Below are positions 9,135 to 62,791 of a stretch of DNA of 64,000 bases, one piece after another. The translations under genes were made by a program, and so were the position numbers. Source of the DNA: Morinoia aosen. Its lineage: Eukaryota; Arthropoda; Malacostraca; Amphipoda; Talitridae. Where the stretch lies: positions 24,546,683 through 24,610,682 of the forward strand of contig CM059560.1 in NCBI GenBank assembly GCA_030386875.1, read 5' to 3'. Every line of letters begins with the position of its first letter. The stretch's first letter is position 1. The notes under the pieces are model-generated. The model had not been told where the DNA came from. It was given only the letters and a program-made list of their open reading frames with translations, and did not search any database.

Positions 9135-9362
9135 CTAAAAGAGGCTCACACAATGAGATAGGTGGTGCTTAGCTAAAAATGCACAAACTTGCAGTTCCAC
9201 TTTACGAGCACGATTTTCGAGAGGATCATTGGATAGCACGTAGCTGGCAATTGATGGTTTTTTGCCACCATGAATCGTTGTTTGTGTCGGTGAGAGCATG
9301 TGACGCCTGATCTTCGATTCCCCACAAGTAATATAGGTTCGACAAACCTTACAATATTCCAC
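9135..9362 (-). pseudogene. hAT BED-finger fragment, copy 2
   Basis: Encodes EYCKVCRTYITCGESKIRRH, with the CxxC that copy 1 has lost. A frameshift relative to copy 1 near 9228 splits the fragment across two frames. The upstream coding sequence (higher coordinates) contains a stop-laden stretch, so no complete transposase can be made. Confidence 0.5.
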
Positions 9363-9877: not shown

Positions 9878-10129
9878 CTACCTTGCCTTTATTAATATGC
9901 ATAAACTCTCCTCAACACTCAGTTGTAGAACCCCTAGTGCTTCAATTTCGGTTGACGGAACTCTAGGCATGATCGCAGCTATATCAAATTCTACGTCCGT
10001 GCTATTGCGCCTAAAAAAGAAAGTGAGAATACAAAAATATATTGCAAATTTTAAGTCGATACTTGTACTCTTTTGTTTATATGAATTTTTGTTACTAATT
10101 TTACAACTTCTTCCTTTCGCTTTTAGCAC
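9878..10129 (-). pseudogene. hAT internal coding fragment
   Basis: An 83-residue minus-strand frame inside hAT copy 2, matched by a more decayed stretch at about 7820-8060 in copy 1. It includes VEFDIAAIMPRVPSTEIEAL. I cannot place it in a named domain. Its position downstream of the element's right end and upstream of the BED fragment suggests a 5' exon or a transposase remnant. Confidence 0.3.
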
Positions 10130-10952
10130 CTTTTGTAACTCGAAGTGTCAAAGAACCCTGTCTAAATTTTTTAGTTTGCATCGCTACAATAACATGCTTC
10201 CTTGGCGTGCAGCATGGCTAAGAAATAGGACGCCTTCAATCTAATTAGCTGGCAAAATACCGGCGCTGTGAGGTAACTCTGCTGTTAATTCAATGACTAT
10301 CACAAGAATGAACCTAATAATTATTTCTACGATGAAATATATTAGCTGTGGAATTTAACGAAACAACAAACATACCAGTCAATATTCTGTTGAAGCTTAA
10401 AACCACTAGTGCAATCAGAATAGGACAGTGACGTTCGTCGACTGGCTGATGCTGACACCGATCGAGTTTTTTATTAGCGAAATGCAACTCAGAATCATTT
10501 GTCAAAAGAAGTGGACAATAGATATTATGGCTTCGTATCTTGACGCCGTCTTTCGTGAGCGATACCTGATGACATTCAAATATGCGACACTAACCACAGC
10601 AGCAGTGCAGTTTTTTGAACACTAAATTCTGACCCGTTTCATTACATTTCGTTCAAGTGGTAACCAGTAGGGTGCTTGTATATTGGATTTCAATTTTCTA
10701 TTTTTCGGAGATTAGGCGGTCACTTCCTTCACGGAGCTCTGATTACCCTAGATTTGCCCATATTTTTCATTACCCTAAATATTACCCTAGGGTACCCCTG
10801 ATTACCCTAAACTTGGGTAATTACCCTGCTCGTGGAAACACTGACTGTAACTGTAGACTGTAGTCAGTGTAGTGTAGCCGCTCAGGCATGCAGAAGTTAA
10901 AAAATGCTTGAGATTCGGGCAGTAAAAAACGGATAATGTAGCCGCGCCTTTA

Positions 10953-37011: not shown

Positions 37012-39234
37012 TCACCCTTCGCAAAGAAAAGCTAGGTACGCTTGAGGTTTCTTTATATTTATCACGATATCTTCAGTGAACCAGGGCTTTTGTTTATTTT
37101 TCAGTGTAACTGAACGAGTTCCAATTGGACAACACTGATTGTATGCGGTCATTATGGTGTCAGTCAACTTTTCTACTGCTTCATCTATGCTCGTTGTATT
37201 AATGTATTTTCGGGAGATGCGCAATGTTGGCATTCATTCTTCTAGTATGGCGCGCATTTCTCCCAATTTGTTTCGTTAACGCTACGATCTGAGTGTGCCG
37301 CACACCGCACATGTCTATCTGTAGTATTGTCTGTATCTGGAGGCCACCTATATAAAGCCGTACTTGTCGAGGCTCAGGTGCTCAGTCGTTCAATCACTTA
37401 CCCCCTGCCATCACCTGCCAATAAATCTCCGCTAAGCTTCACCAGTGTTTACCTTTGCCCCGCATATTTGGTGGCCAGATGTGTTGAACTGAACTCACGC
37501 TCGCATAATCGTGCATAAGTGATCTTTGATCAATAATCATGTGTTGAGAGCGCGTTTAAATTTCTTTTTAAATCTCTGTTTGGTTGATTGCGGTAGCATG
37601 TTAACAATTTAACAGTAAAAAAGTGGTTAAACATTTGTTTGGATGCGATGTTATAGTTATTGGTGTTTGCGGTGCGTGAATTTAATTTTCAATATTTCTA
37701 AAAATTTACTTAATACTATTGTTTTTTGGCGTTTAATTATAACCATATTGATGACTCAAGCGTTGGCGAATGGTAAATTGTTAATCGAGAATGTCTCTTT
37801 CTTTAACATGTTTTCTGAGATTTAATTTTTTCCTTGGAGGTTCTGATTTTTTTTTTGCGTTCTATTTTCGATGCGGTTTACCTATAATCATTTTAGTGAT
37901 GTAAACGGTTCTTCTTTAACAATTTTAGCTGTGCGTTTTTTTTTAGTTAAGGTTATTAACCATAATGGATCGATTTTTTTTAAACGAACGGGTACGTATA
38001 TATTGTGTTCGCTTAAGCTACCCTCGTCATTGCTTGTTTTTGCTTGAAACTATAATAATGCTTGGTATTGATAACATTTGTTGAGTTTCTTTTTGCTTTT
38101 TGATAATGTAAAGTGCGATACGGTTAACGTAATTTAATATAAAACGGTTTACGAGCGATTTCATAATAGTTATCTTTCATTTAAAATTGTGATTTAATTT
38201 TTTAATAATTGATTACTTGTCAATTCATTAATTGTCCTTTTATTGATTGCTTCAGTTCTGCGAATCTTTGAATTTTGTTTAACCGTTTTTATTTTTTTTT
38301 AATTTTTGAGTATGATGCTCTCTCCTGTGGGGGAAGGGAGCTATGTGCCGCACACCGCACATGTCTATCTGTAGTATTGTCTGTATCTGGAGGCCACCTA
38401 TATAAAGCCGTACTTGTCGAGGCTCAGGTGCTCAGTCGTTCAATCACTTACCCCCTGCCATCATCTGCCAATAAATCTCCGCCAAGCTTCACCAGTGTTT
38501 ACCTTTGCCCCGCATATGAGTAAGTTTTAGCCCGTGGCTTAGTGCAAGTGACATAGACATTTCTTAATAAGAAAAACTAGAAAATGATCTGATAAGTCAG
38601 AAGTAATAATTCCAGTAAGAAAATCAGTTGGGTCTGACAAAGATATTGCCGAGAGCATAGAAGATTCTGAGTATATTCGTGTAGGCTTGTGATGATCGGA
38701 AGAAAAGAATTAGGCTGCATGAGAGCCATTTAGGAAATTTGAGATTGGTTCACAGCTTTTATGTTTTAGTAGAACATAATTGAAGTCATCGTAGATTATT
38801 ATATAATTGTATAAGGACCTGTAAAACTGCTACACAATACGGTTGAGCTCATTCAGGAAGGTTACAGGACAGGCTGTAGCAGGCGTATACACCGTATCAA
38901 GCATAATTGGTTTACAATTTCTAGTCAGTTCTACGAAAAGTGACTGTATATGATCCCGATTTATAGTTGCACTTGCTGTGAGTCTCGAGTCTATGCGCTT
39001 AAATATGTACGTTCTGATGCCACCTCCCCGCTTTTTATTGCGTAGCAATTGTTACCTATGATGATTTTCCATTCTAACAATGTCTTTTGTTGAGTCATCT
39101 AGCCAGCTTCTAGTGAAGCTGATCACTTCGGGGTTATACTTAATTTCAGTTATAGTACATTGTATTTCTCCCAATTTCGGATAGAATGACCTACAGTTCC
39201 AACACAGCAGCGAAAAATCATTGCCATGATTCAT
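37012..39234 (-). pseudogene. LINE endonuclease-domain remnant, split by LTR element
   Basis: Minus-strand fragments show the apurinic-type endonuclease of a non-LTR retrotransposon. 39234-39052 has LLCWNCRSFYPKLGEIQCTI (NxRS motif region) and SRSWLDD-like RSWLDDSTKD. 39048-38830 has KRGGGIRTYIF. About 38600-38640 has SDLSDHFLVF (the SDH motif). 37233-37012 holds KPWFTEDIVINIKK, the linker to the RT. Frameshifts occur between pieces and the reverse transcriptase is absent. The clade (CR1/L2/Jockey-like) cannot be fixed from this part. Confidence 0.8.
37294..38516 (+). mobile_element. Short non-autonomous LTR element, 1.22 kb
   Basis: Two LTRs of 173 bp (37294-37466 and 38344-38516) differ at about two sites. 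Each has CTATATAAAG and AATAAATCTCC as promoter and polyadenylation signals. Flanking TGAG on both sides (37290-37293, 38517-38520) is a 4-bp TSD. A candidate PBS (TTTGGTGGCCAGATGTG) follows LTR1, and a purine-rich tract (GGGGGAAGGGAG) precedes LTR2. The internal 877 bp has no coding capacity, so it must depend on another element. Confidence 0.85.
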
Positions 39235-43941: not shown

Positions 43942-44433
43942 AGGAAGAGTACCCCCAAAATGTGGAATTTTCTTGAGATATTGATTTTAGCTTACTATAG
44001 GAAGTGGTTAGATGTCAGTTACATCCTGTGAAAAAATGAAGTTCGTACGTTCATTGGTTCGCCCGCTACGGGGGTTCAAAGTACGGGGAGGAGTGGAGGG
44101 GGAAGTGATATTTTATCATGTTACAACTTCCCCTTCTCACTTTCTACATGGCTTGACGTTGCTGTGCCATCTTCTATATCTCTTTATTACCCTATAATGA
44201 TTTCCAATCTCTAACCTGACAGAAAAAACTAAAAAACTTATAATTAAGATTGTTTACGTTTCTTTATTTTCCTTTTTTTGGAGGATCGGAATGTGGGGCT
44301 TCAAAATGTATCTCCTCCAACAGTTTTTGTGCTACAGTGATGATTTTGGTATCATTGGATGCGGAATGACATGGGCTTTCCGAAAACTAGCTATTCAATT
44401 GAAAATTCATTTATGATCAAAAGTCAACCATGT
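43942..44433 (+). mobile_element. Repeat family B, copy B4, left half
   Basis: Starts AGGAAGAGTACCCCC after TAA (43939-43941). Matches B1 through GTTCGCCCGCTACGGGGGTT and CATCTCCTCCAACAGTTTTT up to GATCAAAAGTC, then stops at the giant TIR element. The rest of the same copy resumes at 62438. Confidence 0.8.
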
Positions 44434-44741
44434 ACAAGAAGACTGATGGTGGAGTTGAAAAATGACCGGATTGAAAATTTTAAGTGAATTCAACGAAAGA
44501 TTAGTAACACCAGTAAACAAGAGTCAAACGAATCAATAGGCGAGGAGTAGCACTGATCGGGCCCGAGTGCACAACACGCAGCTCTTGCCGCACGCCAGCG
44601 CCCACCGCTTGACCCGAAAGACCTAGACCCAACGGCCTGTAGGAAAAAACAAAAACTTGAGCCTATAAGGACATGAAATAACCCCGAACAACTTCAACCC
44701 CTACCGAGGCAGCTGATATATCAGCTGCGGAATTGCATTCC

Positions 44742-45178
44742 AATTCTAATTATAAGTTTTACGTTATAAGGTTTCATTTATAAGTTTTACGTTATAAGGT
44801 TTCAGTTATAAGTTATACGTTATAAGGTTTCAGTTATAAGTTATACGTTATAAGGTTTCAGTTATAAGTTATACGTTATAAGGTTTCAGTTATAAGTTAT
44901 ACGTTATAAGGTTTCAGTTATAAGTTATATGTTATAAGGTTTCAGTTATAAGTTATATGTTATAAGGTTTCAGTTATAAGTTATACGTTATAAGGTTTCA
45001 GTTATAAGTTATACGTTATAAGGTTTCAGTTATAAGTTATACGTTATAAGGTTTCAGTTATAAGTTATACGTTATAAGGTTTCAGTTATAAGTTATACGT
45101 TATAAGGTTTCAGTTATAAGTTATACGTTATAAGGTTCCAGTTATAAGTTATACGTTATAAGGTTCCAGTTATAAGTT
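44742..45178 (+). repeat. 28-bp tandem array in left TIR
   Basis: About 15 copies of a 28-bp unit (TTCAGTTATAAG, then TTATACGTTATAAGGT). Some units read TATATG instead of TATACG. The right TIR holds a 28-bp unit alignable at about 21 of 28 positions. Confidence 0.95.
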
Positions 45179-45357
45179 CCAAGTACTGGGTTATGAAATT
45201 ATTCGAATGCGTGTGTGGCGTTGCACCCTAATTGACCAGAGCACGAAATTGATACGTTGACAGCAAATCACAATGGCCAACCAACCCACGTATCCCTCAG
45301 TGCTATCCAGTGCTTCGACGTAAGACGGAGAGGAGTAACACGGCCCACGGTGAGTTA

Positions 45358-46923
45358 AGGGGTGTTTACACTAGGGGACATTTCGGCTGTGAGGCGCGAC
45401 TCGTGTAGCCGAAGCTCGCCACTGAGGCTCAAATTTGTGTGTGTGAGCCCGAATTTCCCGATTCGCTTTGGTTGAATCCGTGCAGCGGCTACACGAGTGC
45501 GAGGCGCAGCTCTAGACGGTCAGTGTGCGGATGGCAGTCATCAAGTGAGGTAGCGCCTCTCTCTCACCCGTCATGGCTGACTCAACACTACCGCAAGAAA
45601 CTACACTGCTTCTAATTGAAATGTACTAAGCCCATCAATGCCTTTGGCAGACTAAAAGCTGTGAATATAAAGAGGCTGCTTTCCATTATATTTTAATGAA
45701 GATGAACGAATATAGTAACATTTCACTCATGCAAATAAAAAAGAGATTACGTAGCTACGATGGAGCAACAATATTCACACAAGCTCGTCTACAGCTGCAT
45801 GGCTGCCACTTGGTTTTGTGCTGCATGGCTGCCACTTGTGTTTGACCAAAATATCTAGTGTGACCTCAAAAAATATCGAGAAACATATAGATTTAATAAT
45901 AAAACATTCAAAAATTTATCTAGAAATAAATTAATTATCTACTATAATAAATTAGTTGAACAATAGCATATAAGGATATTTATTTCATAAATTGCTTTAT
46001 TTTAGGCAATTTATCTTTATATAAATTATCTAGTATCCTGATATTTACCCTAATAAAGCTTGGTATCCAAATATTCTTCAATTTTACACGTGTTGCGAGT
46101 AGAAAGGTCAGTCTCTATTGCATTGCATATTATCAATGCTCAGATTCCTACTTATCAACAATTGTTTTAATGCTTTCACACCGCTATCTTCATCACTTTT
46201 AATAATTTTGCAATTACTAAGTAAGTTGATTCTACTTTATTAGATGCATTACTTTAGTATATAACTGATACACCAAGTAGTTTCATGATAGAAATATCAT
46301 TGCTCCATCCAACAATAAACTGAACTCCTTGTTACCAATATCATTGGTCGGTCTTTCGTCAAAATGAGGCCACATTACATTATTGATAATGGATGTGCAT
46401 TTTATTCCATGATTTTCTGATATCATCACTAGTTTTGCAATTGGAGATAGTGTGCTGTAGCTTATGAACCGTGAAATAGCCGTCTTGGTGTCGTTCATAA
46501 TCTGAACATAACATGATCAGAATATGGTTGCTTCACTATTCAGACAATTTGCTTAAGTAAATTAACAAATATAATAAGAATGAAGCAGTAACCAACCATT
46601 ATGGTGACTTCCTAATTCGAATTTACAGTAATCTATCATATACATAGCTTAAATGTAATTCTAGCTAGAAAATTTCTAGCACGCTGAAAAAACTATATAA
46701 ATTTTGTAGCTAATAACTAGGTTCGAAATTTTACATCTAGGCTTCAGCAAAAACATCTAGATCTAGCTATATAATATCTAGAGTGGCAGCCCTGTTGAGC
46801 AGCGCGCGCTCCATGGCTCGCTCCAATGGTGTCTAGTCTAAACGCACATGTCTCTTGTGAAGCTCCACACGAGGCGTCTACACGTGAGCCTGCAGCAAAA
46901 TGTAGACCAGTGTAAACGGCCCT
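45358..46923. mobile_element. PIF/Harbinger-type element H2 (inverted copy of H1)
   Basis: Ends AGGGGTGTTTACACT and AGTGTAAACGGCCCT, flanked by TTA (45355-45357, 46924-46926). The right TIR keeps the unoccupied site GGAAGCCTAACTCACC at 61180-61195, which confirms the boundaries and the 3-bp TSD. It carries the same nested hAT as H1. Confidence 0.92.
45824..46794 (-). mobile_element. hAT fragment nested in H2
   Basis: CATGGCTGCCACT to AGTGGCAGCCCTG. Flanks TTGTGCTG and TTGAGCAG are a decayed 8-bp TSD (6 of 8). The minus-strand frame at 46283-46498 retains MWPHFDERPTNDIGNKEFSL, a hAT transposase core fragment. A short duplication of its end (GCATGGCTGCCACTTG) precedes it at 45798-45813. Confidence 0.75.
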
Positions 46924-47139
46924 TTAGGCTTCCATGGTCAGGTCACACGTCAGCGGGCGAAGAGGCGAACTCTGCTCCCTGACGGAGTGACCAATTCGCT
47001 CCTCACTCCACCACGGTCTTCCGGCGCCAAACTTCAGCAGTACCTACAGGCACTCTTTCGGTCAACCAAAATAGCTCCGCACAATCCGCAGCCCTCGACG
47101 ACGGCCACGCTGACCAGGATTGCAGGACAGCTGATAATA

Positions 47140-50100
47140 ATGGTGTATGGTACTCAATTACTCATAATGGCATACATTAGAACGTCTGAACCTCTTGACG
47201 ATAATCCTTTTGGAATCAAATACAATATCCCACCTTACTACTACCCTAGACACTTGGATGCTGCTTTAGAATTTGATAAGATCCAATTTTACGAGAAATT
47301 TCCAGAACTCGCTATGAAAAGATTTGAAATTCTAGGAGATGTAAGATTTGTGAACCATGACAATGGACGAATTGAGGGGAAGCATATCTTGGCTTCACTT
47401 GCTTCTCTTGTTGAAGGGAATGCAGCATTGGAGCAAAACAGAGCAAGGACATCCATGGAAACAATTATCGAAATAGTTGCAAAGGCACTGACTGTACAGT
47501 GTAAACAAATGGCAGAAGGGTTTGGACAATTTAATGAACAAATCTTGCAGGAAAAAATCTCTGTCTTGAACACCGATGACAAAGTAGAGAAGTTGTTCCA
47601 GCTGAAAACTTAAAAACTGGCCATTCATAGTGAACTCCAAGAATCAAGTCGCAAAAGAGAGAATCCGGCTGTCATTCCTTGCTTGCCTCAGATTATAGTG
47701 TACAAAGACGTCATTGTTATTAGAGGCATTTGGACTAAGCCAACTGTGGTCCCTCACGAATTTCTTATGTGTGCTCTAGACAAGTTGGAGGCAAAATTCT
47801 TGTCTCACATTTATGCTTCAATTGCCGATGCTACTCCCATTTATAAAAATGTGCCATTCTCTAAATACTTCCGTGAAGTATATGAGTTCCTGGACAGTCA
47901 AGTCATCGCACTTGGTAACGAATCAGCCAGACTGCTGAAGGCTCTGGAGCCTCTCTCTCTTGGTGTGTGCTTGCGATACAAAGGTGCTCCTGAGAATGAC
48001 ACTGGATTTCTACCAGAAGTCCTGAATGGCCTCTTGGAAAAGAATCCATAAGTGCATGCAGCAGCTTAACAGTATGTGGCAATGATGCAACACATGCTAG
48101 ACTGTCACAATGAACAGGGGATCAACATTGTACTGGAATTTCCGGGCAAGAGAAAATGCATTTTTATCCTGTTGTGGACAACATTGCAGGCCTAAAAAAG
48201 ATGAAAACCTACGGAACAGGAATAAGACTTGTGGACTCTGATCTCGTCAACGAGGTACTCTGCCAATTCCACATGGAGTGGATAGTCGCATCGTTCGCGA
48301 AAGAAGGAAAAATACCAAACTGCTGGTGCCCGCCTCATACCTGTGATGAGCTAAAAACTTTCTTACAGAGTGGAAACCCTGGAACTCTTGATCATTGTTC
48401 AAGGATTCCTACATCAGAGTGGGCGACAAGATTCGATTTACTAAACCACACGATAACAACTACTTCCCTCAAGTTGTAGAACTAATTGACGACAAAGGGA
48501 TGGCCCCTCACATTCCTAAATGCTACAATCTGTATGCTACTGATGTTGTAAAACAATTTGGTCTAAGGGGGAATGGACCACGTCCTAACACTAGACTCAT
48601 CTTAGAAGTCGTGAACTTGCAAGAATTAAATGTGGAATCATTCTTTGACCAGATTGAGGAACGAGGCCAGCTTCCAGATGACTGGAAAGTTATCACGTTG
48701 AAAGCAAAAGAGCGTGAGCTCAAGATTGAACCACGAGACTTTTCGATCATGCCCTTAGAGGCGAGAACATGTGCGGCTGTTAATGAAAAGAACATTGCAG
48801 AGGTAGTAATGCCTAAATTTGAGATACACTCACTGCTTCAGACGGGATCTGAATTGAAGACAACAATTGATCAACTGATCATACTGAATAATGACCCCAA
48901 CAGCAAATGGATTGTCTTCAACTTAGATCTCGAACAGTGGAACTAGTTGTGCCATTCACAGAAACGTTGAACAACATCTGTGGAGTCAAGCATTTTAATT
49001 TGGCTAACCACTTGTTCTATGACTGCCGCTTAATGAGCGCGAATAACTACCTTCATTCTGACCGTCCTGACATACGAACTGGATGGACTCATCGTATTGG
49101 GGGGAACCAGGGAATTTGTCAGAAATTATGGAATATTATCACATTCATGATAATTCGCCTTGTAATGAACAGGAACAAATGAACACATCAAATGACTGGC
49201 CCTGGGGACAACCAAGTGGTGGCAGTTAAAATAGAGGCCCATCAGGATGTAAAAACTCAAACCATCTTCATCAAAAAACAACTAGCCGATACTTTTTCAG
49301 CTGTAGGCTTGAGTTTGAAGATCGAAGAGACATGGTTCTCTGATGTGCTGGTTGCTTACCAAAGAAAATACTATTACCAAAGCATTCCAGTTCCTAATGG
49401 ATTGAAACAAACAAACCGGGCATTCTCAGTAACATCTGATTCTTCAGTAGGCCTCAATGCTGCAATTACTACTGCAATGAATGCAGGGAGCAGCATAGCC
49501 GAGACAAACTCTGACCCAGTTGCTGGAGCCATGATTGGCTACATAGAAGCCTTTACTACATTGCTAAACACTCCACACCTAACAGGGTTCAGAAAGTTAC
49601 CTAGACAGAGTCATCCGTTGTTGACAGCCTGTGGCACTGAGTTGGGCATGTTGCCTTTCTTACAACTGGTGCATTTCATGTACCAAGGGCACAAGGACAC
49701 AGTCTCTGACAACTTGAGCTTACTTAAATATTGGTGGGAAAATTATCCTTCGGTGAGAGGGATCATTGCCCAGTTAAAAAATTTCAAGTTTGGTAAAGTT
49801 GATGATGATTCTCGCTTGCAATTGGTGTTGGAGCCCTTTGCATTGAACATCAAACGCCCGAGCTCTGCAGAAGCTGTCACCCAGTTCCTAAAGAAGGGTG
49901 GTGCAGTAAAAAACTTGCAAGTGGGACAACTCTTCCAGTTATTTGATCCGAGAATCTAAAAAGAATTGGCAAGAGAACTCCTAAAAATCAGACCAGTTCA
50001 TGCGTCACTATTTCACAGCTTCTTCAAAAACTCACAAATTGGCCAAATCTTGACAACAGTCAACAGATTAAATAAGATATCATCAATCTCAAAAATGGTA

Positions 50101-51490
50101 GATAGAGATGAAGCAAAAAGGTCTGAAAAATACCTAAGGACTAGCATCTACATCTCCGATAAGCAATTGTCGACTCACTATCAGAGGACTTTGACTCCTA
50201 AAGATCCAAGTTCTAATAACTTTCTGACTCAAGTCATTGGTGACAAGCATGATGCATTTGAACAGTTCTGCCACCACAATGAGCTCGAACCAGATTGTGT
50301 GTTCAGTGTTCATTTGTTTCTGATGTCATTCTCTCATGGATTTGGAAATGAAATAGTGTTAGGACCATTGTTCCTCCTGCTGCTGAACAGTTGATCCCCA
50401 CTAGCAGCACTAACACTCCTAACTCCACACAGTATTAGACTGACTGCTGCTGAAAAATGCCCAACTGATTGGAAAGACCGTGAGACACTCTCAGTGGATG
50501 CTTCAAAACCTTCCTTGGGTCGAAAACCAAATACCCAGTCAGATCACTTAAATTAGTTAATCTTGACACAGACGACATCGGGAGGTCACTCCACCAACTC
50601 TTGAAAATCTATGCTTTGTTGATCAGCACCAAGTCAGATGCAAACACTGTGAACCTTCTCAAACAATTGCTGACTCATCAAGTGCCAGAACTTAGCCCTG
50701 TTCTAGCAGAAATCACAAAAGGGACTGCAGGGGGCACATTCTGTCATAGATACAGTGTCCCTGGGGAAGTCATAGACTGCTATGCGAGTTCTCCAAGTTT
50801 GACTTCAACATGGTACCAACTGAGTACCAACCATGCCACGGGTCTCCGAAGAGGAGAAAATGACAGGTACATTTTCTACCAGGACATCTTCCAACGGATA
50901 ATCTCTGCTCTCCGACTTGTGAATTTCACATCGGGGACGATAGAGGTCATTATCAGGATGGATTCCTGCAGTTACAAGGTGCCCAATGTGCAATACTCCA
51001 CAGCCCAACCTGTAAACTTGGATGAATTCGCAGTCCAAGCTATGACAAGCCTGTCCAAAGAGTCAATGGATCGTGTTCACATGGAAGCAATCCACCATCT
51101 TGTAGTGACTAGAGATAGAGGGCTGTCTACCCTGTCTAGTGAAAAAGCTTTGACTGCATTGACTGCTTTCCAAGTTGTTGGTAACATCAGAACTTTTCAA
51201 CTAGGTCGAGAGTCAGGAGCCTTCTCAACAACCACTGGGATAGGACCACAATCAACTTATAATGTTTCAATTCTGAAAAAAATCCGTTTGGAACAGTTTC
51301 TCAGGTCTTTCATTATCCAAGCAGCCTTGCACAGAGTGTACCACACTCACAACCAAATTGCGGCGGTTATCAATCATCTCATAAGGATGGGAACTACTTC
51401 TATCACCCTACATGCAGGGACTCCACTAATTCCATTCATTGAGGCACTGATCGTAAGTGGACATCTTCCTGAGCTAGCAAGGATTGCAGG
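47140..51490 (+). pseudogene. Endogenous viral L polymerase, N-terminal to capping region
   Basis: An old copy of the RNA-dependent RNA polymerase of a non-segmented negative-strand RNA virus. First ATG candidates (47140, 47167) lie at the inner edge of the left TIR. RdRp landmarks in order: KERELKIEPR before motif A near 48700, motif A DLEQWN near 48930, motif B GGNQGICQKLWN near 49099, motif C GDNQ at 49204-49215. The PRNTase-type capping region keeps GGTFCHRY with HR at 50745-50750. It is broken by in-frame stops at 47611 and 49957 and by several frame changes (about 48051-48156, 48400, 48944, 49190, 50395-50600). Nearest family is perhaps Chuviridae (Jingchuvirales); this is inference. 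It is not functional as it stands. Confidence 0.88.
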
Positions 51491-52760
51491 CAGGGCTGCC
51501 AGTCAACTTTTTCCAAAATCCCCAGACTGACCTCTGAAATTTCACCAGATCGTAAAATAAATCCCCAGATATTAGTAAAAGATATAAATATGAAATTTAT
51601 GCTTATCTTCAATACATTTTAGGTTTAGTTCGCATTTTCATCATGAATGTCAGCGGGAAAGCCAAGAGACTTTGATTCTTTTAATCGTTTCAATAGGTCT
51701 TGGTATCTTTGAAAGGCGGCTCCACTTATCCTTGGTCAGTTTTTAAACTTTTTAGTCGAAGATAAGTAGCACACTTTGCATTATTTCTTGCTAATTTTTT
51801 CTTGGCAAGGAAGCTGCAGTTTCTGGTTTTAAGGATTTTTAAATTTTTTTTAAACAGGTAATAAAGTTGAGGAAATACTTTTTTCAACAGATGCAGATGA
51901 ATGCGTAGCAAGTGAGACAAGTCATAAATTCTGAAAGATACCAAATTTAGGGTCGCCCAAGTCATCTTTAATTTCCCCTAATGATTTCCTATGCTGGGGA
52001 ATTATGCATTCCTTACCGATAGGTCAGCTGCAATTAGATGAAAACTTCTCCACTTGTCGTCTATCTTATTAACTGAGCTTCATCAACAAGCGAGGGGATA
52101 CTTGATCATCATCGTTAGGCGCTTTCTATCTGAAATTTTTTTTCAACTTTCGATTTGGGAAGTTCACAAGTTTTCTTATGCTTCTCGGATCCCTTGTGTT
52201 TCTGTAGGGTAGACTTGTTCGCACTTTCGATCATGACTATGCAACATTTACAACCGAGACGGTTTCCATCTATATTTTTCTGTAGCCAGTCTTTGAATTC
52301 CAAAAATTTTTTATTGTTCCACTTTTTAGGTGATTCCATTGTGTTTAACTAGAAGCTGATAATGCAATAAGGACAAAGCAACACCGCTACGTGTAGCGCT
52401 ATTACTTTAGGCGCACACTATAAGAGACAGCACCTCAGCAATACCAAATGAGTGACTGAGCCAGGCCCTCCATGAGGCGCCAATGTGCGCTGCATTCGGA
52501 TTCCATACAAACAATTGTGATGATAATTTGATTAATTTCTAGATCGAATTGTAGAAATTTTAATTGTTTATGAACCTTTATGTTAAACGCAAATATTATT
52601 GAGGTATTATTTAGGCAATTTCAGTTTATACATGCAGCATATTGTAAGAACACCCCAAATTCCCTAGATTCTTAGCCTTTTTGTATCAAATTCCCCAAAT
52701 CCCTAGACAATGTCCGAATTCCCAAGATCTGGGAAAAATTCCCAAGGTGTGGCAGCCCTG
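51491..52760 (-). mobile_element. hAT transposon inside the L gene
   Basis: CAGGGCTGCCAGTC to GTGTGGCAGCCCTG, flanked by a perfect 8-bp TSD ATTGCAGG (51483-51490, 52761-52768). The L frame continues across the two flanks. The CAGGGCTGCCA tips match the hATs in H1 and H2, so they belong to one family. Confidence 0.95.
52115..52339 (-). pseudogene. BED-finger N-terminus of hAT transposase
   Basis: A 74-residue minus-strand frame with FLEFKDWLQK, then a BED zinc finger: CKCC at about residues 30-33 and KHKGSEKHKK, giving a C2H2-like CxxC...HxxxxH arrangement with NKSTLQ between. It is the DNA-binding head of the hAT transposase. The rest of the enzyme is deleted, leaving a 1.27 kb non-autonomous element. 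Confidence 0.75.
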
Positions 52761-52768
52761 ATTGCAGG

Positions 52769-53405
52769 TGAACCTCTGAGATGGGACTCTGTTGTGAATC
52801 ATCTCCCAGTCATCCGCATTTTCTTCCAAGCATTAGGAAATGTTGGCAGATCAATGCTTCTCAAAAGAGAGAAAACTCCAGTATTACTGGAAGTTAAACA
52901 TGGGATGCGTCCTATGCCAGCTATCATGAAGCTGCTCTCATGGTGGAACTCAGGGTTCAGAATTGAGCACAGAGAGAAACGCCATCTCAATTGGTTGTAC
53001 AGTCTGAACAGATTCAGACAATTGTGTCCAACACTGAAGGTTGCTGCTGTGGCTGATGTTGAAAATGCATTGGAGTATGGTAGAAGACCTCAAATCATCT
53101 TGGAGGAACCACACCTTTACTCCACCACCCCTAGTGGACCTGAAATGCCTACTTTCTCTCAATTTCCAAAGCCAAATCCAGAGCTTAAAATCCACTCAGC
53201 TGCTGGAAGAGTGAAGAGCTCGACCAAGTGTTCTATAAAAAGACTCCATGACCTAGTCCAGGATCAACCCCATCAGCAATGGAAAATGGTGTCGAATGTT
53301 GAAAGATGGCCAACCTCTGCTTCTTCAGGAAAGTTCAAGAATCTTGAACTGTTGTTAGTCACTGGACTTGTGCACATCAATTTCAAACTGGTCGTCTCTC
53401 TAGCT
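52769..53405 (+). pseudogene. Endogenous viral L polymerase, connector region
   Basis: Continues the L frame after the hAT, starting EPLRWDSVVNHLPV. About 210 residues correspond to the sequence between the capping and methyltransferase domains. The frame is open up to LVTGLVHINFKLVVSLA and then a stop at 53406-53408, where BEL/Pao sequence begins on the opposite strand. No catalytic motif is expected here, so assignment rests on continuity. Confidence 0.75.
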
Positions 53406-53422
53406 TGAGCTGAAAAGTCCAT

Positions 53423-53683
53423 TCATGTTGTAGCGAAAGGTCGTACAAAATTAGTCCGACTGTCCGGCAAGGCAGGCGGGTCGGGATAAGAAAAAGCTTT
53501 AGCGTTCACTCGCTTGCAAACTATGCACTTAGATAGGATGCTGCGAACTGTACTCATACAGCGAGGTATCAAATAACCATCTAACTTTAGTTTTTGCACG
53601 GTTGATTCTACACCTAGATGATTAAAAGATTTATGAGTTTGCAAGATTAGAAGATAGGTCAGATGAGAAGAACTGGACAACAA
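53423..53683 (-). pseudogene. BEL/Pao integrase N-terminal region
   Basis: Encodes HLGVESTVQKLKLDGYLIPR (the HH part of the integrase zinc finger) and CIVCKRVNAKAFSYPDPPAL, where CxxC completes it, then LPDSRTNFVRPFATT, the usual boundary before the DDE core. The core is missing: the copy ends here and is joined to viral L sequence. Confidence 0.8.
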
Positions 53684-53693
53684 AATTGGGTTT

Positions 53694-54497
53694 CTAGTAA
53701 TGTAGTCTTAATTCCTCTGCTTGAATAATACGGATACTAGATCTAATTAAATTGTGAGAGTCAAAAAGCAAGTTGAAAGATCTAACAAGCAAAGGCGGAC
53801 GAGGATCCTTGTTTTTCAAGGCCTTTATCTCGCTGGCAAAATGCTCTCTTTGCATAGCGGAAATTAGACAGACAAATGATCGCGTCTTGGCCTCTCCCGG
53901 ATCTGCGTGCTTCCAGATTACTACAGCCCTAAATATCTTCTCTACCACACCTAACAGTTTGAGGTAGGGGGAAAAACGCTTAAGCTCCACAATTGAAGCT
54001 TCACCAGGTGGAGCGACATTAACGGCAACACATGTGTCTGAAATGAATTGCTGAGGAATACAACCCAAGTGACCTTTTGGCCACTTATCTCTACTGTCTC
54101 TTATCCAAGATGGACCTTCTAACCACAAGGGTTTACACTCTAGAAATTTAGACACCTTCAAACCACGAGTAAGCTCATCAGCTACATAAAACATTGTGGG
54201 CACATACTCATAGTTGCAGGCTGCTAAAATCTTACATTCAAGTTGCTTACGCATGGCTTCTATATCTTTCAATCTATTGCTTACAAATATATTCTTGCGC
54301 GGCGGTTTGCCACTCAACAGCCAAGCCAAGGTTACTTGAGAATCAGTTAGAAAAGTTATAGCAGATACTTTGAAAGGAAAGTTCACATCACTCAGAAGAG
54401 ATACAAGACACTGATAGGGGAGAAACACTGCCAAGAGCTCAAGGGAAGGAAGAGTTCGCTGACGAGAAGGCGACACTTTAACTTTAGAGAAAAGTAG
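53694..54497 (-). pseudogene. BEL/Pao RNase H region
   Basis: VKVSPSRQRTLPSLELLAVF is the (A)K-V-P-x-LELLA motif of BEL/Pao RNase H, followed by ITFLTDSQVTLAWL and VPTMFYVADELTRGL, which is the substrate-loop/Asp region. These are typical of BEL/Pao pol upstream of integrase. The upstream part (55023-55145) begins LVFCDANANAFGTCIYG; H3 interrupts in between. Confidence 0.85.
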
Positions 54498-55019
54498 AGG
54501 CCCCCTCACACGCGCAAATACATCTGCAGACAAATCTGAACTGGTGCTGAATTCGTGAATTTGTACGCTCATTTCAGGTTGGCACAGACTGTATCAGGGA
54601 ATTGAGCTATGCTTGATAATTTTGGAGCGACCGGCTGCAAACCTTGACATGACGTGTCAAGTCAGCCTTCGTTGTTGGTGCGCGACTGTACTCTGTCTCT
54701 CGCCCTGCTTGTGCACTTCATTAAGCAATTTCACATTTGTATATCCACTACTTTTTAGGAACCATTCTTTAGCCCATTTTGAGCGAGCCATTTCATCTCT
54801 TTTTTTCTTATTCATTGCAACTAGAGCAAATCCCATCAGCTGTACGAACTCGCCGTCTGTAGCCGCCGTTCTTGTGCGTGCCCTCCACCTAGCTGCTAAT
54901 GGCATACTGAAGCGTGTGCCAGTCTTTGTCAAGTTTGCATCGTGTGAGGGGTCTTGAGACCGACAAACCAAACTTAGTTCAGATTGTTCGCAGACATATT
55001 TGTACGTGTGAGGGAGCCT
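54498..55019 (-). mobile_element. PIF/Harbinger-type element H3, 522 bp
   Basis: Ends AGGCCCCCTCACACGCGCAA and (reversed) AGGCTCCCTCACACGTACAA, with TAG and TAA beside them. It encodes a minus-strand fragment, KKKRDEMARSKWAKEWFLKS, similar to the N-terminal basic segment of Harbinger/MADF-type proteins. A related copy is H6 at 57633. Confidence 0.75.
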
Positions 55020-55022
55020 TAA

Positions 55023-55877
55023 TGCGCTGCGTTCCTCTTGGACGCCATAAATACAAGTACCAAAGGCGTTAGCATTAGCATCACAAAATACAAGTTTAGT
55101 TTTAGTCTTCCCCAAAGTCATCCTAGGAAATTCAAAATCCTTCAACTTCGAAAACTCCAGACAATAGCTCTCCCATTCCTAACGTAAAATTCCCGGAACA
55201 TTCTGATCCCAGCCCAGTCTTAAAGGGCGTCAATTTTCTCAGAATAAGCTTACCTCGCACGGTAACAGGCAACAAAATCCCTAAAGGGTCATTAACAGAA
55301 GCTATTTCAGACAAAACTTCTCTTCGGGTTTTACACGAAGAGTCCAACTCTTTTACAGACAGAGAAAGAAGATCAAAAGGAGTCACATGGTCATAACCCA
55401 GGACTCTGGAGTGTACTTCTGCACTCAAAAGTTCTGGGTCTATTAGGGAAAGATCAGAATTATTGGATTTCCATTTGCGTAATGGTTTCCCACTCTCTTC
55501 AAATGCACTATGGGCGCTTCGAAAGGATCTAAGCGCTAGTTCGGGATTTTCAATAGTAAACACTAAATTATCGACGTACAGCTTGTTTGCCATAACGTCT
55601 CTAATCGTCAAATCTGTAATTGTTTGAGCGTGCAACTTGAGCTGATAATTAAGGATGTAAGGTGAAGCAACTAATCCAAACAAAAGAGTAGTATATCTAA
55701 AACATAAAAATTGATTGTCTTTATAAAGAATAAAGCTAAATTGATTTACGGTCAAAGTCACAGGCAAGTTTTACCTGTAAAAAAGCCTTAGAGATATCGG
55801 AAAGTACAACTACTGCATTTGCTCGGAAATAGACCAAAAGTCCTAACAAATTGTTTAACAGATTAGGACCTACATAA
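55023..55877 (-). pseudogene. BEL/Pao reverse transcriptase region
   Basis: Visible RT landmarks on the minus strand: VVVLSDISKAFLQVKLA (motif A, Asp), FGLVASPYILN (motif B) and MANKLYVDNLVF (motif C, YVDN in place of the usual YVDD). Thumb/connection follows through EIASVNDPLGILLPVTVRGK. A frame break lies near 55755. H4 sits between motif A and the upstream finger region. The second catalytic Asp of motif C is changed, another sign of a dead copy. Confidence 0.85.
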
Positions 55878-57030
55878 AGGCCTGTCGACACGTTCAGTGG
55901 GCGAGCGCTTCACCAGGAAAGAGAGGCTTAAACCACGCCCATTTTCTCTCGTTTCAAACTGAATGGAGCACTAAACAACAGTGTGTCTAGGTTTGGTCTT
56001 CGTCGAGCTATCCAATGCTTGCCAGTGCCATATGAAATGCTGAACGTGTAGGGTGTGTCGTCTCTGCTCTCTGCCTACACGTTCTCTTGCAAAAGTGGCG
56101 TTTAGCTGCCAAAAAACTTTTTTAAGCCAACGCTTCGCCCACATTTTCCTCATTCGATTTTTGTTTCTACTTTATAGCCGCGACAACTGATAAAGATTGA
56201 AATCGCCATTGCCTGTCGCAGAGCCACCTTCGTACTGTGGTGTTCTCCCTCAGGCTGCTTTACACTCCGGGCAGACTTGTGAATATCTATTGACTTGTGA
56301 ATATCGATAGACTTGTGAAATATCTTTGCCCGAAGTGAGTGCCTGAGGTGCAAACGAACCGGCAATGTGAGGAAAACACAACTGGAATAAACGCCGTATT
56401 ATTATGGAGATCGCCGACAATAATGGCACAAGGGAATATTACAGTCGAGTAATACAGTGACAGATGACGTCTTGGCGGACCGACGGTTGTCGGGGAGACG
56501 CTGCGTGGTTGAGGGACGAGAGCAGACCGGTGAGGCTGCTGCTGGCCGAGGGTCTCCGACCAAGGAGTACCAGAGGCGGTAGCGGAGAACTGGTGCGACT
56601 AGCAAGCAACCAGACGTGGCGGCTGGCTGTCGAGGAGGTGGTGAAGCCGACGGGTGAGGTGCTGGCGGAGCGTCGAGGCTTAGTGTGAATATCAGGGACT
56701 CTGAGAGTGTACTGAGCTCCGCTGGCTGCGCGGCTGTTTATATAGGCCTCGCTGGAGGTTGACTCGACCCGTCCGGGTCTCTGATTGGCGGGAACGCCTG
56801 TTTACTTTCACGTCGGACCGCGCGGTGTATTGAAGCGTGCGAAGGTTGTGGTGGTGTGTGTTCATACCACCACAGTACGTTCTCTCACTACCGCTGCTAG
56901 GAGCAGACCGAGGATTTTACTTGGAGCAGTGCTGAACCCCTGCCATGGTCCGTGTCGACACACTGACTCGACCACGTACTTTACTCATCTCATCGTGAAG
57001 CGCTCGCCCACTGACCGTGTCAACAGGCCT
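55878..57030. mobile_element. PIF/Harbinger-type element H4, 1,153 bp
   Basis: Ends AGGCCTGTCGACACGTTCAG and (reversed) AGGCCTGTTGACACGGTCAG, flanked by TAA (55875-55877, 57031-57033). The interior has a minus-strand N-terminal fragment (MRKMWAKRWLKKVFWQ) and a GC-rich stretch at 56400-56990 resembling a reverse-oriented LTR piece with a TATATA box. No full transposase. Confidence 0.85.
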
Positions 57031-57033
57031 TAA

Positions 57034-57632
57034 GAGGCTTCATTCAGACTGGGTAAATTACCGACTTTCAAAGAGCAATTAAATACGGGTCGGATTTTGG
57101 AGATTTCCACATGCGAACGAATTACAGGCCTATGCGGGATACATTTGTGCGCATGCACATCTATCCTTTTGACAGATATCGGCTCAATAATACCCAATTT
57201 AAGCTGCTGAAGGAAGACGTGATTATAGTTGCTTTCGATTCCCTTTTTAGCATTGTCATTCGCTACTCTACGAGCAAGATATCTTGCCAGAGCAAAATTA
57301 CTTGGCACTTTAGCCAAAAGTTGGCGGTTCCAGGGTAACTGGATCGAATACCTACCCTGGTCAAATTTAACCCTGTTTTTAAACCCTTCCAATTCCCGAT
57401 CATTTTCCTCCTCTTTAGCAGGAATACCCATCAACTCGTAAGTCCAAGAGTCGGTCAAGTCCCGTCTGAACTTCGGACTCGTCAGAAACGTCTAATATGG
57501 AGGCACACACTTTTGGTATATCAAAGAAACTAGTCAGAGTGTTACGGTATCGGGTTTCCTTCACTTTACATTTAGCAACTTTCCTTTTAATTTTTGGTTT
57601 AGTCTCGTCGTCAAGAGTCAGAAAAGGTTTAA
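57034..57632 (-). pseudogene. BEL/Pao region upstream of RT
   Basis: Encodes SFFDIPKVCASILDVSDE and, after a frame change near 57440, SWTYELMGIPAKEEENDREL, then LPWNRQLLAKVPSNFALARY and PVFNCSLKVGNLPSLNEAS. These match the segment between protease and RT finger domains of BEL/Pao. The 5' end is cut by H6. Confidence 0.75.
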
Positions 57633-58119
57633 AGGCCCCCTCACACGTACAAATATGTTGGCAGACAATCTGAACTGAATTTGGTTTGTCGGTCTCAAGG
57701 CCCCTCACACGATGCAAACAACACACTGCAAACTTGACGAAGACTGGCACTCACTTCAGTATACCAGTAGCAGCTAGGTGGAGGGTACGTACTTGAGTAG
57801 CGACTCCAGACGGCGAGTTCGTAAAATTGATAGGATTCGCTATAGTTGCAATGAATAAGAAATAAAAGAGATGTAAAAGCTCGCTCAAAATTGGCTAAAG
57901 AATAGTTCCTAATAAGTAGTGAACATACAAATAAGAAGTTGCTTATTGAAGTGCAGAAGGAGGGAGAGAGGCAAAGTACAGTCGTGCACCACACACGAAC
58001 TCGGGCATGACACTGACGTGGTGTGGTCTGACGTGGCAGTCGGAAAAGACCGCGCACATCGGGTCCCTTCCGAATCCGTTGCACTGGCTTCGAACTCGGA
58101 ATGAAAGTGCAAGCGCATT
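57633..58119. mobile_element. PIF/Harbinger-type fragment H6 (H3 family)
   Basis: Starts AGGCCCCCTCACACGTACAA after TAA. It shares with H3 GGTTTGTCGGTCTCAAG and CTCACACGATGC on the opposite strand, so it is inverted relative to H3. Its far TIR is not seen; H5 begins immediately at 58123. Confidence 0.6.
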
Positions 58120-58122
58120 TTA

Positions 58123-59968
58123 AGGCCGTTTTACACGTGCGGAGTTTTCAACGTCAATTGACTACAAGTGGACTGAACGCCGCCCATTTGCCTAACGCTC
58201 CGCCCACTTTTTGACTACTCACGATCGGGCAGTAGTCAACTGTGGCGATCAAGCATGTCTTGATTCTGTTGACAGCAGCTGCTAGCTTGCCGGTGGTAAT
58301 TAGGCGGCGAGTGCTTTGCGGGCAATTATTGTCGAGTATACACGATGGTGTTCCCTGGAGATGATGTTGGGATATTAATGGCGATGTATAAATACTCTCC
58401 TTGTATATTGAATACTAAATTGAAAGATTATGAAAATACAATCTAGAGATTATACGCAATAAATAAAATAACAAGGATAGTCGCTTTTAAAAGATCCATT
58501 ATCAGTTAGTTGTTTAATAAATAGAAAGACCTAAAATGATATATACAATTGAACGTTTCGACCACAGGGGTCATCTTCAGCATTAACAAAGATCTATGGA
58601 AAACAAAAAAATACATTTTATTCAAAAATAAGTGCAACAGTAAAAACAAATAAAAAGAAGGGGACGAAAAAGGATGGAGAACAATACTAACATGCTATTA
58701 ACAGAGAGAATGACGATTCAGTTTCATTTAAAATAGGTTTGTCTTTCATGTTAAAAAGAGATTCTGAAATACGAAGGTCTGATTGACTAGATGTGGTTCC
58801 TATTATCTGGAAGTCGTCCAAGCGGACTGGGAAGTCACACTTCTCGGCATGAGTGCGTACCGAAGAGTGAGGGGGAGAAGCAAGTGTGGTCGAAACGTTC
58901 AATTTTATATATCATTTTAGGTCTTTCTATTTATTAAACAACTGATAGTGGATCTTTTAAAAGCGACTATCCTCGCTATTTTATTTATTGTTAGACTTTT
59001 CAAAAAGCAAAACTAGATGTGTGAGATTATACGCATTGTGAAATTTTTCAAGTCTTCCAAATTATACAGTGAAAGCAGTAAAATCTAAAATTCGAACTAC
59101 AGGAATGAAAATATGGTCTTGAAGTAAATAAAAAATTTGGTTCTGGTACTGACGACGCATTGACGATCTTCTCTTCTCTGCTTTTTGAAAGATGTTTGCG
59201 GTAACTTAGCTTCACAATCTAGCTCCTGGTGGGATGGAGTTTCTCATTATTGCCGAATTTCTTCAGTCACTTTTTTGTGGAGAAGGTGCGCGGCAAGTGC
59301 CATACGTGCGGTTATTGTCGAGTATACACAATGGTGTTCTCAGGAGATGATGTGATATTAATCGTAATATACAAAGACTCTTCATGTTTGTTGAATACTA
59401 AATTAGAAAAATATATAAATATGAACTTCAGGGATGATGGGGTATTGGAAAATTTCTGAGTCTCTCAAATTATACTGTGAAAGCAACAAAATCTAAAATT
59501 CAAACTTTGGAACTGAAAATATGGTCTTTAAGAAAATAACAAATTTTGTTCTGGAACTGACGACGTGTTCTTCAAAAATTGTGGCTGACGATCTTCTCAG
59601 CTTTTTGACAGATGTTTCCGGTAACGTAGCTTCCCAATCTAGCTCCTGGTGGGATGGAGTTTCTCATTATTTTCAAATTTTTCAGTCACTTCGTGGAGAA
59701 GCTACTGAAACATAGGTACTAAAAGCCATATAACTTTCAGCATAATCTCTCATCAGTACTTAGCTCTTGAAAAATAGATCTGTGGCTACCAAGAGTTGGT
59801 CTATCTTGTAGCTGCTCCCTTCGCTACATTGATTGCGTTGACTGCAAACGGTAACTACGTGTATAACCATCGGCTGCAGTTGCGCACGCAATTACTCTGA
59901 TGGGCGTGGCTTCATGTGAACACGAGTAGTCGATTGACGTTGAAAACTCCGCACGTGTAAAATGGCCT
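58123..59968. mobile_element. PIF/Harbinger-type element H5, 1,846 bp
   Basis: TIRs of 43 bp with two differences, beginning AGGCCGTTTTACACGTGCGG and (reversed) AGGCCATTTTACACGTGCGG, flanked by TTA (58120-58122, 59969-59971). The interior has a duplicated block (58330-58440 and 59315-59420) and a Penelope-like insertion. No transposase. Confidence 0.9.
58448..58992 (-). mobile_element. Penelope-like element fragment with inverted flanks
   Basis: The minus-strand frame at 58687-58902 (PPHSSVRTHAEKCDFPVRLD) is the end of a GIY-YIG endonuclease, as at 33325. ACGTTTCGACC...TCATCTTCAG near 58553 is a common Penelope 3' feature. About 105 bp at 58448-58558 recurs inverted at 58888-58992, framing the fragment. 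Confidence 0.75.
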
Positions 59969-59971
59969 TTA

Positions 59972-60119
59972 GTAGTGAGGAAATGCGCTTGCCACCGAAG
60001 TTGTGAGGAACCCCCACCATTGCTCTTTTATTCGCTTATTATTCGTTATATAGCCTTTTAAGTCTATTGACTTGACAGAAGCCTAAGACCCCTTACAGCG
60101 GAAGGCTATTAATAAAACC
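59972..60119. other. Junction segment before resumed L gene
   Basis: Contains GTTGTGAGGAACCCCCACC and AATAAAACC; possibly a solo LTR scrap of the BEL/Pao or unrelated. The junction with L cannot be fixed exactly. Confidence 0.35.
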
Positions 60120-60970
60120 TTAATAAGCCCGCAAAGGATCTTGGGCTTAGAGCAACGGCAAGAATTTCCACAAGCTGAAGGAGCAGGATCTTACCTGAGT
60201 TTATGCTTGCATGAGTTTTCTGAGGCAAATGGTCTGTACAATTCGAAAATCCATCCTGAGTCTGTCTCACATGCCTACAGTGGCACCTTGGTACCTCCAG
60301 AATTAGAGTCTGAACACAATGTGAAACTCAGAGTTAAGAACCTCCCTTACAAGCCCGTCTCATGTGCTGATCTTAATAAAAAGGAGACGTGGGTTGAACT
60401 AATTGATCAAGTAAAAAGTCATAAACGATCACCCACCCATGTCACCTGGGACATGGAGGGCTTTACCAAAAATCGCCCAAGACTCTTTGGATTGTTGGCT
60501 TATTTCTTGATGAAACTGAAGATCCAGCATGCAATTGTAAAAGTCCTCCTTAGTGATGTTGATGGGAACTTAGTCCCGCTTCTAAGTAGCACAGACGCAC
60601 AGCTCACCTGGAAATTGATAATACCACAGAAGAGCAACATTGCATCAGAAGAGTTCTTTCTAGTAGCATACCCAGATGGCAAACACACGGATGCTCCACT
60701 CAACTTACTGACTTAACTCTTTGTGGGAAGATTGGTCACTGGAATTCGCATCAACATCTCCCACTTCACGATGGCAATCCTCTGCTATGATAATGGATTG
60801 GGTTGATTCTGTCCCTGTTTGCAACAAAACCAGTCCACGCAAGCCCACTGGAAACTTAAAGACTAAACATGCTGTTAATGCTGTGTGCCAGCAACTCTTG
60901 ACAATTGTGGAGGAACTGGTGTTGTTTAAACATGGGCCTCACAACCCAGATTTCGCCTCGCACAGTGTCA
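60120..60970 (+). pseudogene. Endogenous viral L polymerase, methyltransferase end
   Basis: The L gene resumes with GLEQRQEFPQAEGAGSYLSL; GAGSYL is the glycine-rich SAM-binding motif of the mononegavirus methyltransferase. Then VTWDMEGF and LLSDVDGNL supply acidic residues expected of the catalytic tetrad region. A stop at 60714-60716 ends this frame. The neighbouring frame 60721-61104 continues with KHAVNAVCQQLLTIVEELVL, so a frameshift lies there. The right TIR begins at 60975, within or just after the L C-terminus. Confidence 0.8.
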
Positions 60971-60974
60971 CTGG

Positions 60975-62437
60975 ATCAGCTGTCGTGCAATCCTGGTCAG
61001 CGTGGCCGTCGTCGAGGGCTGCGTATTGTGCGGAGCTATTTTGGTTGACCGAAAGAGTGCCTGTAGGTACTGCTGAAGTTTGGCGCCGGAAGACCGTGGT
61101 GTAGTGTGGAGCGAATTGGTCACACCGTCAGGGGGAGCAGAGTTCGCCTCTTCGCCCGCTGACGTGTGACCTGACCATGGAAGCCTAACTCACCGTGGGC
61201 CGTGTTACTCCTCTCCGTCTTACGTCGAAGCACTGGATAGCACTGACGGGTACGTGGGTTGGTTGGCCATTGAGATTTGCTGTCAACGTATCAATTTCGT
61301 GCTCTGGTCAATTAGGGTGCAACGCCACACACGCATTCGAATAATAACTTTATAACCCAGAACTTGAAACCCTCTAACGCATACCCTATGACTGAAACCC
61401 TCTACCGCATACCCTATGACTGAAACCCTCTACCGCATACCCTATGACTGAAACCCTCTACCGTTAAACTTTTGACTGAAACCCTCTATCGTTAAACTTT
61501 TGACTGAAACCCTCTACCGTTAAACTTTTGACTGAAACCCTCTACCGTTAAACTTTTGACTGAAACCCTCTACCGTTAAACTTTTGACTGAAACCCTCTA
61601 CCGTTAAACTTTTGACTGAAACCCTCTACCGTTAAACTTTTGACTGAAACCCTCTACCGTTAAACTTTTGACTGAAACCCTCTACCGTTAAACTTTTGAC
61701 TGAAACCCTCTACCGTTAAACTTTTGACTGAAACCCTCTACCGTTAAACTTTTGACTGAAACCCTCTACCGTTAAACTTTTGACTGAAACCCTCTACCGT
61801 TAAACTTTTGACTGAAACCCTCTACCGTTAAACTTTTGACTGAAACCCTTCACCGTTAAACTTTTGACTGAAACCCTTCACCGTTAAACTTTTGACTGAA
61901 ACCCTCTACCGTTAAACTTTTGACTGAAACCCTCTACCGTTTAACTTTTGACTGAAACCCTCTACCGTTTAACTTTTGACTGAAACCCTCTACCGTTTAA
62001 CTTTTGACTGAAACCCTCTACCGTTTAACTTTTGACTGAAACCCTCTACAGTTTAACTTTTGACTGAAACCCTCTACCGTTTAACTTATGACTGAAACCT
62101 TCTAACGTATAACGTATAATTAGAATTGGAACGCAATTCCGCAGTCGATATATCAGCTGCCTCGGTAGGGGTTGAAGTTGTTCGGGTTTATTTCATATCC
62201 TTATAGGCTCAAGTCTTAGTTTTTCCCTACAGGCCGTTGGGTCTAGGTCTTTCGGGTCAAGCGGTGGGCGCTGGCGTGCGGCAGGAGCTGCGTGTTGTGC
62301 ACTCGGGCCCGATCAGTGCTACTCTTCGCCTATTGATTTGTTTGACTCTGTTGTTTACTGGTGTTACTAATCTTTCGTTGAATTCAATTAAAATTCTTAA
62401 TCCGCACTTTCTTTAACTCCACCATCAGTCTTTTTGT
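60975..62437 (-). repeat. Right TIR of the 18-kb element
   Basis: Inverted copy of the left TIR, without H2. It contains the empty H2 site at 61180-61195 and a longer 28-bp array. The outer end is CAGTCTTTTTGT at 62437, adjoining family-B sequence. Confidence 0.9.
61363..62112 (-). repeat. 28-bp tandem array in right TIR
   Basis: About 26 copies. On the plus strand the unit is ACCCTCTACCG then TTAAACTTTTGACTGAA. Inner-edge units read CGCATACCCTATG; units near 61940-62090 read GTTTAACTT; the outermost reverts to CGTATAACGTATAA, close to the left-arm unit. Confidence 0.95.
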
Positions 62438-62791
62438 TCGAAAGTCGCGACGTCATAAAGTACGAAATTTGACGAAAGAAGTCATTCCTTGGAATTTTTT
62501 GTGTTCTTCCCATTCAAACTAAAAGTGTGGAGTATGACCAGTTATTTTCTGGAATTTACAGGTACTTCTGCATCCAATGACACCAAAATCGTCACTTTAG
62601 CTCAGAAACTGTAGGAGATGTATTTTGACAACCACAAAATTTCGTTCACCATAAATATTTCGTTTTCTATGATTAAAATCACATTTTTCAGCGATAAAAA
62701 ATTATTTCTAATTGCATTTCATATCAGTATACCAAATTTCAAGCACTATGTTCAATAATAAAGAAAAATTTTTAAAGGGTTACTCTTCCCT
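62438..62791 (+). mobile_element. Repeat family B, copy B4, right half
   Basis: Begins TCGAAAGTCGCGACGTCATA, colinear with B1 at 23430, includes GCATCCAATG and CTCAGAAACTGTAGGAG, and ends GGGTTACTCTTCCCT followed by TAA (62792-62794). The TAA on both outer sides (also 43939-43941) is a Harbinger-like TSD for family B. Confidence 0.8.

Follow-up and report, generated by a model that had tools for sequence, protein, structure and literature searches.

How does a gene of a negative-strand RNA virus come to lie between long inverted repeats in an animal genome? For non-retroviral virus genes, the routes into animal genomes generally assumed are the machinery of retrotransposons and the repair of breaks. 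In the amphipod Morinoia aosen (GenBank assembly GCA_030386875.1), a stretch of 64,000 nucleotides of contig CM059560.1 (positions 24,546,683 to 24,610,682 of the forward strand; hereafter the window, numbered from its first base) holds a broken viral L polymerase gene enclosed by two inverted arms. At a probability of roughly 60%, we read this unit as a non-autonomous DNA transposon of the Foldback/Mutator type with the L gene of a mononegavirus inside, that is, as a Pack-TIR with RNA-virus cargo. A Pack-TIR holds non-transposon sequence between the arms of one terminal inverted repeat (TIR) element, and this is the arrangement found here.

The inverted arms and the insertion site

The unit, its arms and its flanks are listed below (lengths in base pairs, bp, or kilobases, kb).

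44434-62437: the unit as a whole, ~18.0 kb, bounded by inverted arms
44434..45357, plus strand: left arm, with its outer part, then the 28-bp minisatellite (44750-45178), then the beginning of the inner part
46924..47135, plus strand: left arm, remainder of the inner part, an inverted-repeat match to the right arm
60975..62437, minus strand: right arm, including the 28-bp minisatellite 61389-62108
43942..44426, plus strand: left half of host repeat X, 75% to 22955-23380 and 71% to 26455-26852, ending in the left duplication copy
44417..44426, plus strand: left copy of the likely target-site duplication, with 8 of 10 bases as in the right copy
44427..44433, plus strand: 7 bases beyond the inverted repeat on the left, provided that the duplication measures 10 bp; the right end has none
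62438..62447, plus strand: right copy of the likely target-site duplication
62438..62768, plus strand: right half of host repeat X; the match is firm (71% to 23532-23768) from 62549 on and gappy before

The arms are composite inverted terminal arms of the foldback type with internal tandem repeats. Each is made up of an outer part of ~316 bases, then the 28-bp minisatellite and then an inner part of ~375 bases. Outside the minisatellites 657 of the 691 aligned bases are identical. The long TIRs that an earlier note on this DNA had reported at 44434..62437 are present there. The minisatellite is repeated 15.3 times in the left arm and 25.7 times in the right arm. In the best rotation the two consensus units share 21 of 28 bases (none of 5000 shuffles was as good), and agreement at 28-base spacing within the arrays is 99% on the left and 97% on the right. 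Given this high internal agreement, the arrays were homogenised inside each arm and not across the two; they are homologous yet drifted apart. The left array additionally has sub-periods of 7 and 14 bases (0.69-0.71). When the window was compared with itself, no further copy of the arms was found in its 64 kb besides this pair. Mismatches in the outer arms crowd near the outermost bases (44434-44500 versus 62370-62437) and much of the remainder is nearly identical, a clustering that gene conversion or a mixed ancestry of the arms might explain.

The unit lies in host repeat X, which has two copies elsewhere in the window: X1 (22955-23768) and X2 (26455-26872 and 27519-27767). The hexamer AAAGTC is present in both flanks, and separate local alignments place both occurrences at X1 23432-23437; this register is taken from X1, with X2 compared only as a whole. 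In register the flanks agree at 8 of 10 bases, both differences being transitions, and with the register fixed, six or more consecutive matches were obtained in 308 of 100,000 random pairs. A target-site duplication of 8-10 bp with an exact core of 6 likely flanks the unit at this single locus, and the alignments to X show that the whole unit interrupts the repeat once and was inserted as a block. Repeat X itself (22955-23768 and 26455-27767) has an inverted repeat mid-way, which means that the target of the unit was itself a repeat able to form a hairpin.

An older L gene could by chance have come to lie between two foldback copies that face opposite ways and never formed one element. Foldback copies are often rearranged, and a single copy of the unit leaves room for such a history, but we think it improbable, as the entire block breaks X a single time, the duplication is found at the two outermost ends of the block, and both arms match as far as one shared inner edge, with L directly adjoining that edge in the left arm.

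The L gene

The pieces of L are distributed between the arms as follows.

47140..51490, plus strand: L pieces with the N-terminal side, polymerase motifs A-C and the capping region, broken; the N-terminal piece and 49960-50391 are included by position only
52761..53408, plus strand: L piece, assigned solely from its position and open frame, with no family or structure match
60087..60974, plus strand: L piece with the methyltransferase motif, in an open frame to 60713; from there to the arm the bases are not assigned to L

Five open pieces match PF00946 (Mononeg_RNA_pol) with E-values from 5e-4 to 7e-17, two of them above and three below the curated cut-off, at profile positions 184-299, 346-424, 435-609, 609-703 and 710-961. 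One more piece matches PF14318 (Mononeg_mRNAcap) above the cut-off (E 7e-7), and the methyltransferase piece matches PF14314 weakly (E 0.04, below the cut-off). The motifs, which lie in separate open pieces, are DLEQWN at 48926, GGNQG at 49099, GDNQ at 49204, HR at 50745 and GAGS at 60180; the polymerase motifs A, B and C occur in order, and three further HR dipeptides are taken as chance. The stretches 47140-47610, 49960-50391 and 52761-53408 are attributed to L solely from their position and open frame. L has its first in-frame ATG at 47140, with 4 bases between this codon and the left arm edge at 47135, and L would span ~5.9 kb if it reaches the right arm, having been followed as far as the open frame to 60713. 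No second copy of the L pieces was found in the 64-kb window and no other match fell below E 0.07. Judged by its sequence, the cargo is a decayed, nearly complete mononegavirus L gene. The earlier note's identification of an L gene stands; of the two further domains, capping has its family match above the cut-off, and the methyltransferase is represented by its GAGS motif and the weak match.

In a structure search the motif-C piece matched four chains of 1711-1756 residues (E 5e-9 to 9e-9), which we take, from their length, to be bornavirus L. The piece ending at motif A matched 6ueb (E 8e-11), presumably rabies L, and vesicular stomatitis virus L 5a22 (E 1e-8), and reached only E 0.002 with the chains of 1711-1756 residues. 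Since the pieces point to different families, L can be placed in the Mononegavirales and no finer. Four L pieces had no significant match in the structure search, and the best match of 47614-48048 was to an L chain at E 0.81. In a protein search with the motif-C piece none of 589 candidates scored, but the tool used skips relatives of a piece that are full-length. Three L pieces were also used in three scans of viral contigs, which gave 18, 25 and 7 pattern matches, none of which was confirmed. An AlphaFold2 model of one L piece made with no alignment had a mean predicted local distance difference test score of 38.7 and was not used further.

Large insertions aside, the stop-to-stop table of L contains at least three in-frame stops and at least four frame changes; a possible fifth frame change near 60712 was left out, as it is uncertain whether it lies inside L. 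If L was intact when the arms were identical, the divergence of the arms gives a rough expectation, for 5445 bases of L, of 6.2 stops together with 7.9-19.7 indels, where the indel range corresponds to 2, 3 or 5 assumed indel events in the arms and some of the 5 counted are trimming effects. The lesion load of L is not above neutral decay since the arms were identical. Because the load is within expectation, L may have been intact at that time, when the unit formed.

Nested insertions, probable capture and known systems

Several transposons have been inserted into the unit.

45358..46923: insertion in the left arm resembling a miniature inverted-repeat transposable element (MITE), flanked by TTA at either end; another copy (92%) lies at 19099-20702
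51491..52760: hAT-like MITE inside L, whose 11-bp ends are perfect and which is flanked by an 8-bp duplication
53409..60086 (limits approximate, ~6.7 kb): nested transposon block, with BEL/Pao fragments on the minus strand and two TIR elements
55877-57031 and 58122-59969: the TIR elements of the nested block, seen as inverted-repeat pairs

The MITE-like element at 45358-46923, which we assume to be PIF/Harbinger-like, finds its empty site in the right arm, which makes the insertion younger than both arms. Its presence, flanked by TTA, in one arm only is also relevant to whether the inverted repeat was made by the assembly, which the earlier note had named as a result that would undo its proposal. 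Long inverted repeats are difficult to assemble, but in addition to the one-sided insertion 34 of the 691 arm bases differ, there are indels, and the minisatellite arrays are unlike in both the sequence and the number of their units, so that an artefact is very improbable.

The MITE inside L presumably belongs to the hAT superfamily, and the BEL/Pao fragments are recognized by PF05380 in three pieces, two above the cut-off and one just below. Altogether ~9.5 of the 18.0 kb are later nested transposons and ~8.5 kb are left for the original unit. The earlier note had described a DNA-type unit with no other gene between the TIRs and a viral polymerase as its only cargo. L as the original cargo is supported, with X broken and the duplication in register, but the unit is not otherwise empty, as the hAT-like MITE, the BEL/Pao fragments and the two TIR elements are nested between 51491 and ~60086. 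In its 18-kb size and long TIRs the unit superficially resembles a virus-like DNA element, whether of the Polinton/Maverick kind or another, that has gained L. We give this hardly any credence, as ~9.5 kb of that size were inserted later and the likely duplication is 8-10 bp, whereas Polintons make 6-bp target-site duplications. Families of PolB, integrase and capsid proteins were absent among the open reading frames scanned, which were not all of those present.

L probably entered DNA as a complementary DNA (cDNA), perhaps from L messenger RNA (mRNA), and this cDNA would have been copied between the foldback arms through template switching or gap repair. A transposase provided in trans may then have moved the filled unit into X; alternatively, the element may have settled in X first and have been filled there. 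Mononegavirus mRNAs have short 5' leaders, and the close fit of L to the left arm, with 4 bases before the ATG, suggests a cDNA ending near the mRNA 5' end. Of the two origins raised in the earlier note, we favour that in which a TIR element captured L over that in which inverted repeats formed around an integrated L. Nothing in evidence shows that L is useful to the element.

A larger claim would be that foldback transposons of the host multiply L as cargo throughout the genome, with L perhaps transcribed from the arms. The whole L unit within X with its likely duplication, the tight fit of L against the left arm and a lesion load that permits an intact L when the arms were identical all agree with such a mobile family. 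Within the 64-kb window, however, the unit is a single copy, with no other arms or L pieces, and we consider a mobile family rather unlikely.

Several points weigh against the reading of the unit as a Foldback/Mutator-type Pack-TIR. No transposase, including the Mutator type, was found among the open reading frames of the unit that were scanned (not every one was), and membership in Mutator is suggested by structure only. The right minisatellite array lacks the 14-base sub-period and has no sub-period above 0.45. The shared hexamer without the register was matched in 2198 of 20,000 random pairs, and since it is this frequent by chance, the weight of the duplication rests on the shared register. 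There is no poly-A on the 3' side of L, where the longest run of A is 4, which speaks against a complete mRNA copy. The arms may have differed already when the unit was inserted, which makes the decay estimate rough. Additionally, a cargo of ~5.9 kb is far outside the Pack-TIR survey, in which the median is 224 bp (PMC8277862).

The earlier note knew of no described element class with this layout, but composite TIRs with tandem repeats and target-site duplications of 8-10 bp have been described (PMC4079207, PMC3169594), as have Pack-TIRs (PMC8277862); these and the following articles are cited from excerpts of their text. The Tm1 Mutator/Foldback elements of root-knot nematodes have multi-domain composite TIRs with tandem motifs of ~14 bp and target-site duplications mostly of 9 bp (8-10); 7-bp motifs lie beyond the TIRs, insertions are nested in the elements, and some members carry a gene (PMC3169594). 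The present unit is like Tm1 in its composite TIRs, its ~14-base repeats (in the left array), its 8-10 bp duplication, its 7 extra bases, its nested insertions and, for some Tm1 members, the carrying of a gene. It differs in that the cargo of Tm1 is non-viral (PMC3169594) and the 7-base extension is present here at one end only; the likeness considered is one of structure. Tetris of Drosophila virilis, a foldback placed in Mutator by its authors on structure, is likewise non-autonomous, with tandem repeats within long TIRs and duplications of 8-10 bp, but its repeat unit is ~220 bp compared to 28 bp here, and the excerpted text mentions no captured virus gene (PMC4079207).

Pack-TIRs resemble the unit in carrying non-transposon sequence between TIR arms, and one of them, Ssk-FB4 of Drosophila, is a foldback, but known cargo is short with a known parental copy whereas here it is an RNA-virus gene of ~5.9 kb (PMC8277862). 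As excerpted, the same survey of 100 animal genomes reports no Pack-MULE; it explains single-copy Pack-TIRs chiefly by gap filling combined with template switching, and multicopy ones by template switching and subsequent transposition (PMC8277862). Large endogenous L genes of negative-strand RNA viruses are represented by the bornavirus-like L of Eptesicus bats; that gene was ascribed to LINE-1, with poly-A, a 9-bp direct repeat and an intact open reading frame, and the word "inverted" is absent from the text (PMC4865735). In horseshoe crabs, sequences derived from RNA viruses lie close to DNA-transposon sequence, with transposase domains in the flanks, but this is proximity within 10 kb and not cargo between TIRs (PMC12282059).

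Foldback elements, Pack-TIRs and endogenous L genes are each known singly, and what is unusual is that the cargo is an RNA-virus L; searches of open-licence papers in PubMed Central turned up no viral L between foldback arms. If our reading is correct, a DNA transposon would serve as a place where RNA-virus genes are captured, might also carry them onward, and would be a possible route for them into the genome. The range of Pack-TIR cargo would also be extended from the surveyed median (PMC8277862, as excerpted) to several kilobases.

Other features of the window

At 506-1996 lies a large palindrome that is imperfect (90% over ~1.5 kb) and whose arms contain 73-bp repeats; it is followed at 1997-4049 by three tandem arrays with units of 17/83 bp, 46 bp and 20 bp. 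From this layout, 506-4049 is possibly another foldback-type structure with adjoining satellite DNA. A tandem duplication of ~2.1 kb, 92% identical, lies at 6687-10843. An open frame of 385 codons at 33986-35143 has a DUF4817 match above the cut-off and weaker matches to helix-turn-helix domains of Tc3-type transposases; together with the BEL/Pao fragments, these weaker matches point to an animal genome. Finally, a direct repeat of 174 bases (37294-37467 and 38344-38517), 98.9% identical with copies ~1.05 kb apart, is perhaps similar to the long terminal repeats of a retrotransposon.

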